NCBI RefSeq assembly: GCF_900774055.1
Contig: NZ_CAAGSW010000002.1
Location: 248,001-312,000 of the forward strand
Source of the DNA: Methanococcoides sp. AM1
GTDB taxonomy: Archaea > Halobacteriota > Methanosarcinia > Methanosarcinales > Methanosarcinaceae
Length of the DNA: 64,000 nt
Direction of reading: 5' to 3'
The position numbers and the translations under genes were made by a program. Below, in pieces: positions 2,036 through 6,397 of this stretch. The notes under the pieces were generated by a model. That model saw only the letters and a list, made by a program, of their open reading frames with translations, was not told where the DNA came from and did no database searches. Every line of letters starts with the position of its first letter. Positions within the stretch are counted from its first letter, which is position 1.

Positions 2036-2815
2036 TTAAAAAACTGAGTAAAGCATTGCTGCTACTCCAATAACCAGTGGTTCCATAACAAGGTCAATAT
2101 CGTACTTCTCGACAAGCTCATCTGGCAGGGCGCATGGGATGCCGGGCGTTGATACAAGACAACGTTCTGCGATCATTCCTTCTGAGATGGTATTTGCATT
2201 TGGTGTTGCCTCAAAGACCATCGAGAACTTCCTTTGTCTCTCAATATCAAAGGCCTTCACACCAAGTTCTTCTATTGCCTTGTTCATGAAATCGGTGTTC
2301 GGATCGCATGCATATACATTGAATCCTTTTTCTACAAGGTGTGATGCACCGGCATAACCTACACGTCCAAGACCTATGACCAGTACATCCTTTGAATCGG
2401 TGTGCTTATATCTTGAAGCTATCTCTGAATAGATCACACCGGTGCATACATGGTTGGTTGCTATCTTACCGTTCCTCAGGTTGTGGGCAATGAATATGTG
2501 GTCATCTGCCATCAGTATTATGTCCGCACCACCTGCCACTGCCTGATGGTATCCTGTTATGTCAGGATGCTCAGTAATAAAACCTTCAAGTCCGAAATAT
2601 TCGGTTATTGCAAGCAAGGATGCTGAGAAATTTCCGATTATGCCGTTGCCTGAAGTTATGGGTACGATACCTACCTTCTGGGAATCCGGGTTTGTGTCAT
2701 AGACGCCCTTACATATCTGTGCGATGTCCATCCCAGTAGCTTCTTTAATAATGTTATTGTTCATGTTGAGTTTGTTCAACAGGTCTTCCAGGTCTTCAGG
2801 TGTCAATAGTGCCAT
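2036..2815 (-). CDS. pylD: Pyrrolysine biosynthesis protein PylD
   Basis: A 259-aa Rossmann-fold dehydrogenase. PylD oxidises L-lysine-N-epsilon-3R-methyl-D-ornithine, and the product cyclises to pyrrolysine. The nucleotide-binding loop is visible as VIGLGRVG, followed by a strand ending in an acidic residue (NVYACDPN). Length is normal for the family. It is the last gene of pylTSBCD, 12 bp after pylC, and ends with TAA. The gene order and PylS, PylB and PylC upstream make the assignment nearly certain. Confidence 0.95.
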   Translation of the reverse strand: MALLTPEDLEDLLNKLNMNNNIIKEATGMDIAQICKGVYDTNPDSQKVGIVPITSGNGIIGNFSASLLAITEYFGLEGFITEHPDITGYHQAVAGGADIILMADDHIFIAHNLRNGKIATNHVCTGVIYSEIASRYKHTDSKDVLVIGLGRVGYAGASHLVEKGFNVYACDPNTDFMNKAIEELGVKAFDIERQRKFSMVFEATPNANTISEGMIAERCLVSTPGIPCALPDELVEKYDIDLVMEPLVIGVAAMLYSVF

Positions 2816-2827
2816 AGTGATTACCTC

Positions 2828-3910
2828 TTATAATCCATAATTATGTCCGATATATGCAATTCCTCTGTTACGTGCGATCTGTGCTGCATCTTCACTGATA
2901 CCCCTTGAGATGAAAGTGAACACAGTGTTCTTCCCATCAGACCTGAATATTTCAAGTCCGTTCTCCTCATGGAACCTGTCATAGCTGTCTCCCATGGAAA
3001 GGATGTGTTCTCCCACGGGCACAAGTTCTCCATCTTTCAGTAATAAGTGCTCAAAGATGCAGTATCCTTTTTCAGGTGCCTTATCAATCTCAGTTACACC
3101 ATCAGTGTAAGCCTGCATCAGCATCTCTACAAGGTTGATACCACTTGAATGGTATACTGCCGTTGGTGTCTGGCTTGGGAAACGGGCATCGATCTCAAGG
3201 ACCTTCAGGCCCCTGTCAGAAGCGATTGCTTCCACATCCATGATACCCTTCAGGTTGAGGTTCGCTGCAAGCTGGTATGATATCTGCCTGAATTCAGGGT
3301 CATGGTCGATAGGCGTTATCATATGACAATCGTATGTGTCATCGATATGTACCTTTGTTTCCTTCACCACTGCAAAATGGCTGCCATCACCGATGATCTC
3401 AAGTGATACGACATCACCTTCCAGATATTCCTCGATCATCATGGAAGGGTCGAGGCCTTCAAGCTCGCTGTTATCGTAGATTATCTTAGTTCCAATGCTG
3501 CTGCTTTCGCATGGCGGTTTTACAAAATATGGTGGCTGGGATGGTTTATCATCCGGAGTTGGTACTCCTATGGATACAAAATATTCCTTTGACCTGTTTT
3601 TGTTCATGCTGATGTGGTATGCATCAAAATCAAAAAGAACGGGACAATCCAGCTTGCTGCTGATATCCCTTATGAAGTTCAGTGTATTAAGGTTCTCATT
3701 GACCGGTATTATGGCATCGACATCCCTTGAAATGTCGATAAACCTTTCCGGTTCCTGAATTATGTCAAAACAGAAGAAATCGTCAACAACATTGCGGATA
3801 AGGGGTTTCTCGTTCCGGTCTATCAGAACAACATTCATCCCCGCTTTCCTGGCAAGATAGCTCACTTCGAATCCCTGAAGCTTGCCTCCTATTAGACAGA
3901 TCGTCGTCAT
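2828..3910 (-). CDS. pylC: Pyrrolysine biosynthesis ligase PylC
   Basis: A 360-aa ATP-grasp enzyme that joins 3R-methyl-D-ornithine to the epsilon amino group of L-lysine. The N-terminus has a Rossmann-like GGKLQGFE segment. The ATP-grasp core shows FVKPPCESSS, a MMIEEYLEGDVVSLE hinge region and a metal-binding VLEIDARFPSQTP motif. Its ATG begins one base after the amber stop of pylB, so translation of the two is tightly coupled. Its stop is TAA. Length and operon position agree with characterised pyl clusters. Confidence 0.95.
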   Translation of the reverse strand: MTTICLIGGKLQGFEVSYLARKAGMNVVLIDRNEKPLIRNVVDDFFCFDIIQEPERFIDISRDVDAIIPVNENLNTLNFIRDISSKLDCPVLFDFDAYHISMNKNRSKEYFVSIGVPTPDDKPSQPPYFVKPPCESSSIGTKIIYDNSELEGLDPSMMIEEYLEGDVVSLEIIGDGSHFAVVKETKVHIDDTYDCHMITPIDHDPEFRQISYQLAANLNLKGIMDVEAIASDRGLKVLEIDARFPSQTPTAVYHSSGINLVEMLMQAYTDGVTEIDKAPEKGYCIFEHLLLKDGELVPVGEHILSMGDSYDRFHEENGLEIFRSDGKNTVFTFISRGISEDAAQIARNRGIAYIGHNYGL

Positions 3911-3911
3911 C

Positions 3912-4964
3912 CTATCGCCCCAACAACTTCTCGAACTCGCTTTGTTCTGCGGGCTCCATACCCATTGTTTTCAGTCTGGCGATAACGCTCTTAACGTCCC
4001 TGTCCCTCTCGGCATGTTCCCTGTCGTAGTTAACGACACCTTCAAGGGATGAGTTAGAAGATATTATGGAAGTGACAACGTTTGCTCCTGCATTGAGCCT
4101 GTGGACCATTCCATCGATCCCTTCAAGGTCAAGTGATGCCGGAATAAGCTTGTCCGGGTAGAGGAGGCGGAGTATTGAGATGATCTTGAGCTCCGATGAA
4201 CTGTCCTTTATTTCCTTTCCTTCCAGTGGTGTTCCCTGCTGTGGGAGGAATGTCATCACACGTACCATATCCGGATTGGATGTTGCTAATCCTCTTAATG
4301 ATATGATCGTGGATTCAATATCCGGCTCGACTTCTGTCAGGATGCCATCTTCAACACAATAGCCGATCCTTTTAGCATGATTCCTTGAATTGATCCTGCC
4401 TTCAAATGATTGCTCGACCCTTAGTTGCTTGTACAGTTCCATGTCATAGGTTTCCTGATACAGGGCAAGGAAGTTGGCACCGTTGTCCCTGAGCATTTCA
4501 AGGGTATCGTTGTCAACAACTCCCGGGGAGACCATGATGGGTTTTCCCACCTCTTCCTTTACGGTCCTGACAAATTCTGCCAGTCGTTCAGGTTTGTTGT
4601 GGAAGTATGGGTCTTCTCCCATTGTGAGGTCGACCATGTGTACATCTTCGGTCTTGATCACCTGGCAGATCTTCCTGATGTCCTCCGTGCTAAGACGGTA
4701 CCTCTCAATATCATTTGCATTCCTATAGTAACAGAATGTGCATTTGTTCTTGCAGTATGTAGAAAAGTAGACAAAGCTGTACATGAACACCTTATTTCCG
4801 AAGAAATGGTCCCTGATGTGTCGTGCAACATAGTGCAGCTTTTCAATTTCACCAGGGCTTTCAGTTTCAAGAAGTCTCCTGATGTCGTCATCGGACAACT
4901 GTGACCCGTCTATGATCTGCTCTGCATAGTTGTCAAGGTCTTCATTATCCATGTTATTAAACAA
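3912..4964 (-). CDS. pylB: Methylornithine synthase PylB (radical SAM), ends in UAG
   Basis: PylB turns L-lysine into 3R-methyl-D-ornithine, the first step of pyrrolysine synthesis. The radical-SAM CX3CX2C motif is clear (CKNKCTFC), as are the family's MVDLTMGEDPY and LPQQGTPLEG segments. Two starts are possible: ATG at 4952, or an in-frame TTG at 4964. I prefer TTG because GAGGTGA ends six bases before it and includes the TGA stop of pylS; the same signal is 17-18 bases from the ATG. With TTG the protein has 350 aa, close to the family length. The stop is TAG, the pyrrolysine codon. Readthrough would add Pyl plus 42 residues, ending at a TGA at 3785-3783 inside pylC. Confidence 0.93.
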   Translation of the reverse strand: MFNNMDNEDLDNYAEQIIDGSQLSDDDIRRLLETESPGEIEKLHYVARHIRDHFFGNKVFMYSFVYFSTYCKNKCTFCYYRNANDIERYRLSTEDIRKICQVIKTEDVHMVDLTMGEDPYFHNKPERLAEFVRTVKEEVGKPIMVSPGVVDNDTLEMLRDNGANFLALYQETYDMELYKQLRVEQSFEGRINSRNHAKRIGYCVEDGILTEVEPDIESTIISLRGLATSNPDMVRVMTFLPQQGTPLEGKEIKDSSSELKIISILRLLYPDKLIPASLDLEGIDGMVHRLNAGANVVTSIISSNSSLEGVVNYDREHAERDRDVKSVIARLKTMGMEPAEQSEFEKLLGR

Positions 4965-4974
4965 GATGTTCACC

Positions 4975-6228
<1,254 letters not shown>

Positions 6229-6325: not shown

Positions 6326-6397
6326 TGGCGGAAACTCCGGGAATCTAACCCGGCTGAACGGATTTAGAGTCCGTTCGATCTACATGATCAAGTCTCC
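6326..6397 (-). tRNA. pylT: tRNA-Pyl (anticodon CUA)
   Basis: A 72-nt gene including an encoded 3' CCA. It nearly matches known pylT: a 7-bp acceptor stem with one G-U pair, a very short D arm (GATC-ATGTA-GATC) without the usual GG, a CUA anticodon in loop CTCTAAA, a 3-nt variable loop and a T arm that lacks TpsiC (CCGGG-TTAGATT-CCCGG). These are the hallmark oddities of tRNA-Pyl. It heads the pyl operon. GGAAAGCC and GGCTTTCC flank it (6309-6316 and 6431-6438) and could pair in the precursor. Confidence 0.97.

Follow-up and report, generated by a model that had tools for sequence, protein, structure and literature searches.

The gene for release factor 2 (prfB) is autoregulated by a frameshift at an in-gene UGA, and the protein itself is the sensor. 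Selenophosphate synthetase (SPS2/SelD) contains selenocysteine inside the enzyme, at the active site. For pyrrolysine (Pyl), the literature describes UAG as ambiguous in a Pyl archaeon, and the fate of the codon is decided by competition between the release factor and Pyl-tRNA, with no cis signal needed (PMC9499178). For M. acetivorans, a review cites 20-30% readthrough of a UAG reporter (PMC2933860). No cis signal or regulator has been agreed upon for balancing the Pyl supply in archaea with dual use of UAG (PMC9499178; PMC8211752). In the passages of the same review that deal with pylB, Rother and Krzycki (2010) report TAG as the last codon of the gene in M. mazei, M. acetivorans, and M. burtonii and TAA in M. 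barkeri, take the UAG as serving as a stop, and note that M. acetivorans pylB supports Pyl synthesis in E. coli once its TAG has been replaced by TAA (PMC2933860). At its core, the pylB TAG is already published for a few species. The codon studied here is the same, at the same place in the first three of those species, and M. barkeri again has TAA; the 2010 passages treat it as a plain stop in few genomes, with no genus-wide count, comparison with other genes, or regulatory reading. A search largely confined to open-access literature yielded no statement on wider conservation or regulation of the pylB TAG, and pylB is not mentioned in the published Pyl-gene predictions examined. The breadth of its conservation across genera appears to be new.

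The window, a stretch of 64,000 nucleotides of the Methanococcoides sp. AM1 genome (G000:C2:248001-312000), holds tRNA-Pyl(CUA), PylS, PylB, PylC, PylD, and the pylB TAG within one cluster (Table 1). PylB belongs to its family by a TIGR03910 score of 569.9 bits (curated equivalog cut-off 348.2), and its alignment spans residues 8-349 of M. barkeri PylB (PDB 3T7V, 350 aa), which indicates that the family naturally ends at the TAG position. The longest pylB ORF begins at 5045, inside pylS; the start that fits the relatives is 4952 (346 aa). The first-pass annotation had ended pylB with TAG at 3914-3912 and had called it the only gene found in the window to end so. Both claims hold: the 61 ORFs comprise 34 with TAA, 26 with TGA, and one with TAG. 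Taken alone, one TAG per 61 ORFs is about chance level, since a 400-kb sample of this genome has 367 ORFs, 3.0% of which end in TAG. Which gene bears the TAG, and its retention, are far from chance, judging by the genome comparisons below. The pylC ATG lies at 3910-3908, which gives the junction TAG-G-ATG with one base separating stop and start. Translation with TAG as sense also bears out the proposed readthrough product, Pyl plus 42 residues up to a TGA (3785-3783) inside pylC; the frame runs ...FEKLLGR-TAG-DDDDLSNRRQASGIRSELSCQESGDECCSDRPERETPYPQCC-TGA. Predicted peptides diagnostic of the extension in this genome are SELSCQESGDECCSDRPER and ETPYPQCC, and LLGR-Pyl-DDDDLSNR would cross the codon.

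Table 1. Features of the pyl cluster, with positions numbered along the window
Feature	Position	Strand	Basis
pylT, tRNA-Pyl, anticodon CUA, reads UAG	6326..6397	-	ARAGORN
pylS, pyrrolysine--tRNA(Pyl) ligase	4975..6216	-	NCBIfam NF007083
pylB, methylornithine synthase, 346 aa, TAG included	3912..4952	-	NCBIfam TIGR03910 equivalog; PDB 3T7V alignment
pylB-terminal TAG, at the natural C-terminus of the family	3912..3914	-	invariant in 24-genome alignment; 52/90 genomes
GGGGCGA, possible pylC ribosome-binding site within the last pylB codons	3915..3921	-	anti-SD duplex
Readthrough extension, 42 codons + TGA, -1 frame of pylC	3783..3911	-	translation with TAG as sense
pylC, 3-methylornithine--L-lysine ligase	2828..3910	-	NCBIfam TIGR03909, 546.3 bits
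pylD, 3-methylornithyl-N6-L-lysine dehydrogenase	2036..2815	-	NCBIfam TIGR03911

The comparison of pylB ends covered 90 usable Methanosarcinaceae genomes; searching the whole class for PylB brought in only G131 and two distant copies, which lie outside the stop-codon counts. TAG ends the gene in 52 genomes, TGA in 28, and TAA in 10. It was found in all 11 Methanococcoides, all 8 Methanohalophilus, and 23 of 24 Methanosarcina genomes, and further in genera g3 (1/1), g4 (2/2), g5 (4/4), and g12 (1/2), with single cases in g10 and g11. The first-pass annotation had named TAA or TGA in most close relatives as the outcome that would speak against a role for the codon; Methanococcoides, Methanohalophilus, and all but one Methanosarcina have TAG instead. 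The main junction class is TAG-N-NTG, where pylC starts with ATG, GTG, TTG, or CTG. Among the genomes with this spacing, 50 of 52 have TAG. The remaining two have TAA and are Methanosalsum G071 and G078, a Methanosarcina, like the M. barkeri of the 2010 pylB passages (PMC2933860). In a 24-genome alignment the triplet is invariant, and the preceding codon and following base are variable. The conserved element at the pylB/pylC junction is TAG-N-NTG. Nearly all Methanolobus, Methanomethylovorans, and allied genomes differ because pylB extends 1-13 residues further, to a TGA lying across the pylC start (ATGA), and this overlap fixes TGA in them. On the PylB tree, the TAG distribution needs six changes. 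No row departs from TAG in the clade formed by Methanococcoides, Methanohalophilus, and G003 (20 rows), and one does in the clade that unites Methanosarcina with g4 and g5 (30 rows). An independent pylB TAG occurs in the Methanomethylovorans-like genome G065 (L099, g11), where a tandem TAGGA duplication causes a frameshift ahead of the customary ATGA junction.

Stop controls from the same operon gave TAG in 0 of 89 pylC, 0 of 46 pylS, and 1 of 44 pylD genes, the pylS and pylD sets being drawn from 47 named loci. Background frequencies were taken from six 400-kb samples. Among ORFs of at least 80 aa, TAG ends 3.0% in G000, 3.8% in G017, 1.6% in G031, and 7.1% in G083, and many of these TAG-ended ORFs are spurious or carry in-frame Pyl codons. 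The conserved genes of all six samples (n=1439) include 8 plain-looking TAG stops besides pylB (about 0.6%), none of them in G000; there, TAG occurs in four of 315 conserved genes, namely mtbB (sense), an FrhB-like gene, one further gene, and pylB. Six of 225 orthologue pairs between G000 and Methanococcoides G017 have TAG in either genome, and only pylB has it in both. Among 184 pairs between G000 and Methanohalophilus G031, pylB is the sole gene with TAG in either genome, and in 400 kb of G031 it is the sole TAG-ended ORF of at least 450 nt. TAG is common to G000 and G020 (298 pairs) at pylB, mtbB, and the FrhB-like gene with its in-frame TAG, and to G083 and G074 (123 pairs) at pylB and mtmB. 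Since the shared TAGs outside pylB lie only in mtbB, mtmB, and the FrhB-like gene, every one of them is probably a sense codon. No other plain TAG stop was common to species in these orthologue sets (59-298 pairs).

A stop-codon model with three states, fitted on the orthologues of G000 and G017 and using one clock for all genes, predicts about 12.8 losses over the two clades at 3% TAG against one seen (P ~4e-5). The P value changes with the assumed TAG frequency, being 2e-12 at 1.5%, 0.012 at 5%, and 0.08 at 7%; the frequency in conserved genes (<2%) favours the strong end of this range. For the Methanococcoides-Methanohalophilus clade, 6-14 losses are expected at 3-1.5% TAG, and none was seen. 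The weaker part of the case is Methanosarcina, with its higher overall TAG rate. The distance to the next stop was also compared. The 8 other TAG-ended conserved genes, a small sample, reach TAA or TGA after 0-20 codons (median 4.5), and pylB does so only after 14-42. Retention of the pylB TAG by selection is well supported. In G017, the ordinary TAG-ended conserved genes 76, 208, 220, and 242 mostly have TAA or TGA within 0-5 codons, as if guarding against readthrough, unlike pylB, which has no close back-up stop.

At junctions with 0-6 bases from stop to start in four genomes (n=68), TAG occurs four times, always at pylB-pylC. Where stop and start are exactly one base apart, the counts are 11 for TAA, 3 for TGA, and 4 for TAG (all pylB). 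TAG is limited to pylB-pylC at short junctions, and the idea that one-base spacing favours it was therefore rejected. No conserved RNA structure was found at the junction: nothing exceeded shuffled sequences and no covariation was seen, the RNAalifold consensus (-1.58 kcal/mol) has no compensatory pair, and single-sequence z-scores were 1.04, -0.52, and -0.21. A search beside the pylB UAG likewise gave no PYLIS-like or other conserved hairpin. With what we take to be the anti-SD sequence, GGGGCGA would form a duplex of about -8 kcal/mol in Methanococcoides, against a genome gene median of -5.1. This plausible ribosome-binding site of its own may allow pylC independent starts, so coupling to pylB may be weak. 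In Methanosarcina, pylC starts with TTG or CTG in 19 of 24 genomes; such starts fit a dependence on coupling and would suit re-initiation. Five of these (L105, L107, L116, L119, and L120) apparently begin with CTG right after pylB TAG-C, and the 14 others with TTG. Methanococcoides and Methanohalophilus have a single full aRF1, and Methanosarcina has two.

The extension behind the TAG is 42 codons long in Methanococcoides (11/11) and G003, 39 in Methanohalophilus (8/8), and 14-23 in Methanosarcina and g4/g5. Genera lacking the TAG mostly have a stop in this frame after 9-14 codons (30 in g14 and g2). Random synonymous recoding of pylC keeps the frame open that long in about 2-5% of cases; pairwise simulations give 8-17%. 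Between G000 and G017, synonymous change in pylC codons 11-43 is 0.148, versus 0.424 in the rest of the gene, and equally low values occur in two of 148 genes, pylC itself counted. The last pylB codons also show reduced synonymous change. In Methanosarcina, the extension region gave no sign of synonymous constraint. In the AlphaFold2 model a helix reaches residue 345, and the remainder is predicted to be disordered (pLDDT 22-27). No homologue of the extension peptide was found, its length is not conserved, and no homologous protein was found to continue in frame past the pylB TAG in the manner of an internal sense UAG. The peptide is probably, at best, weakly constrained. In Methanococcoides and Methanohalophilus, its open frame and the synonymous constraint hint at a function, yet a functional extension is not claimed because low variation in Methanococcoides reaches about pylC codon 100, far past the extension, and the within-gene window ranks are moderate.

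The pylB TAG is kept over several genera and almost no other gene ends so; thus, the end product may control its own production. We consider it quite possible, if short of probable, that selection has kept this TAG as a two-way codon, where the choice between Pyl-tRNA and termination at the pylC start acts as product feedback on pylC and/or PylB. More tentatively, it may be a one-codon amino-acid sensor: with plentiful Pyl-tRNA the pylB stop would be read as Pyl and ribosomes would pass the pylC start, so that pyrrolysine controls its own synthesis. Re-initiation classically occurs from a position one base before a start codon. With little charged Pyl-tRNA present, the release factor would win and PylB would end at residue 346; the terminating ribosome would stand one base before the pylC start and could re-initiate. 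When Pyl-tRNA is plentiful, some ribosomes would insert Pyl, read on in the -1 frame across the pylC start, and reach a stop 42 codons later, yielding PylB with a disordered Pyl-containing tail and leaving fewer ribosomes for pylC. Because termination would place the ribosome at the pylC start and Pyl insertion would carry it past, high Pyl-tRNA would lower coupled pylC translation and low Pyl-tRNA would do the reverse. The end product would in this way damp translation of its own pathway. We infer the readthrough at the pylB TAG, the dependence of pylC on termination there, and feedback as the net effect.

The UAG is not needed for a working pathway because TAA takes its place in G078, G071, and, by the pylB passages of the 2010 review, M. 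barkeri, and mostly TGA in Methanolobus and Methanomethylovorans. The first-pass annotation had suggested feedback on either PylB activity or pylC translation. An action on pylC translation fits better, than one via a conserved PylB tail, because TAG-N-NTG is conserved and the tail (14-42 residues, predicted disordered) is not. On this evidence, feedback that would act mainly through pylC is the best-supported mechanism.

Several other genes in these genomes carry TAG. The FrhB-like/YHS-domain gene of G000 (L156:13945-14979, plus strand; G000:C2:381945-382979) has an in-frame TAG after 344 codons, followed by 45 more codons. The TAG residue is Tyr in the G017 orthologue (SSVGYEIF vs SSIGOEIL), and TAG also occurs in G020; the protein is a candidate new Pyl protein outside the methyltransferases. 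A 161-codon ORF of G000 (L155:17753-18238, plus strand; G000:C2:365753-366238) is followed by TAG and 270 open codons and is possibly a large Pyl protein. Another locus (L144:12379-13023, minus strand; G000:C2:140379-141023) has 214 codons, TAG, and 28 more codons that resemble the end of a DNA-binding domain. In Methanohalophilus G031, a Trm5-like tRNA methyltransferase gene (L194:13284-13589, minus strand) has an in-frame TAG after 101 codons, with 171 homologous-looking codons beyond.

The main rival to feedback holds that Methanococcoides and Methanohalophilus read TAG as plain sense, practically always, in which case the 389-residue PylB-Pyl is the ordinary product, its tail is tolerated or useful, and the junction is no sensor. 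Archaea in which all TAG codons stand for Pyl were reportedly described in 2025. The rarity of TAG among the 315 conserved G000 genes (four cases in 400 kb, with mtbB sense) points the same way, as do the Tyr of G017 aligned with the FrhB-like TAG, an extension open for 39-42 codons in 20/20 clade genomes (random synonymous chance ~2-5%), and a synonymous change over pylC codons 11-43 that ranks near the bottom of 148 genes. We nevertheless regard this reading as somewhat unlikely. The low synonymous change in Methanococcoides runs well past the tail and its window ranks are only moderate, the tail is predicted to be disordered, and Methanosarcina keeps the TAG though its tails are only 14-23 codons. 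Moreover, TAG closes four ordinary conserved genes of G017, most of them with a closely following TAA or TGA.

The first-pass annotation had also left room for a neutral TAG, that is, an inherited ordinary stop that is tolerated since PylB is needed in small amounts and the tail is harmless. Conservation across Methanococcoides, Methanohalophilus, and Methanosarcina makes this unlikely. Other TAG stops turn over, with five of the six TAG genes among the G000-G017 orthologues lacking TAG in the other genome; TAG is almost absent from the ends of pylC, pylS, and pylD in the same operon; and none of the 6-14 expected losses is seen in the Methanococcoides-Methanohalophilus clade. A neutral leftover would agree with the losses to TAA or TGA that do exist (G071, G078), with the tail's want of a homologue, and with the 2010 passages, which take the UAG as a stop and report the TAA version to be functional in E. 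coli (PMC2933860). It is distinctly improbable that the three bases are retained for the sake of the mRNA near the pylC start, through ribosome binding or local folding, and not for decoding. The triplet does sit between a possible ribosome-binding site and the start codon, and the last pylB codons are also low in synonymous change; however, the adjoining codon upstream and base downstream are free to vary around an invariant triplet, other one-base-gap junctions use TAA (11) or TGA (3) and TAG only at pylB, and no conserved fold is present, with z-scores near 0.

If feedback is true, a conserved UAG set between two genes of Pyl biosynthesis, where it tests the Pyl-tRNA level, would amount to a minimal feedback device. 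The pylB TAG allows a single-base genetic test in M. acetivorans, and the exact peptides can be searched in existing proteomes. Expression of pylBCD for genetic code expansion would be affected, as the native TAG would be read through.

In comparison with known systems, the proposed pylB feedback resembles prfB in that a stop codon lies in a gene of the decoding machinery and its fate is set by the level of the gene's own product. prfB works by a frameshift with a protein sensor, whereas a small-molecule product would act at pylB via a tRNA at the gene end. As in SPS2/SelD, a biosynthetic gene for a rare amino acid bears that amino acid's own codon; the residue of SPS2/SelD is at the active site, and that of pylB would lie past the folded domain. 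The UAG codons of mtmB, mtbB, and mttB are read by tRNA-Pyl and, like that of pylB, conserved in position, but conserved protein sequence follows them, whereas pylB has a -1 overlap with pylC and no homologue. Finally, thg1 of M. acetivorans also has a UAG outside the methyltransferases; as cited in the review, its Pyl codon lies within the protein, is found in a single species, and was judged non-essential (PMC2933860), whereas the pylB TAG is kept over several genera.
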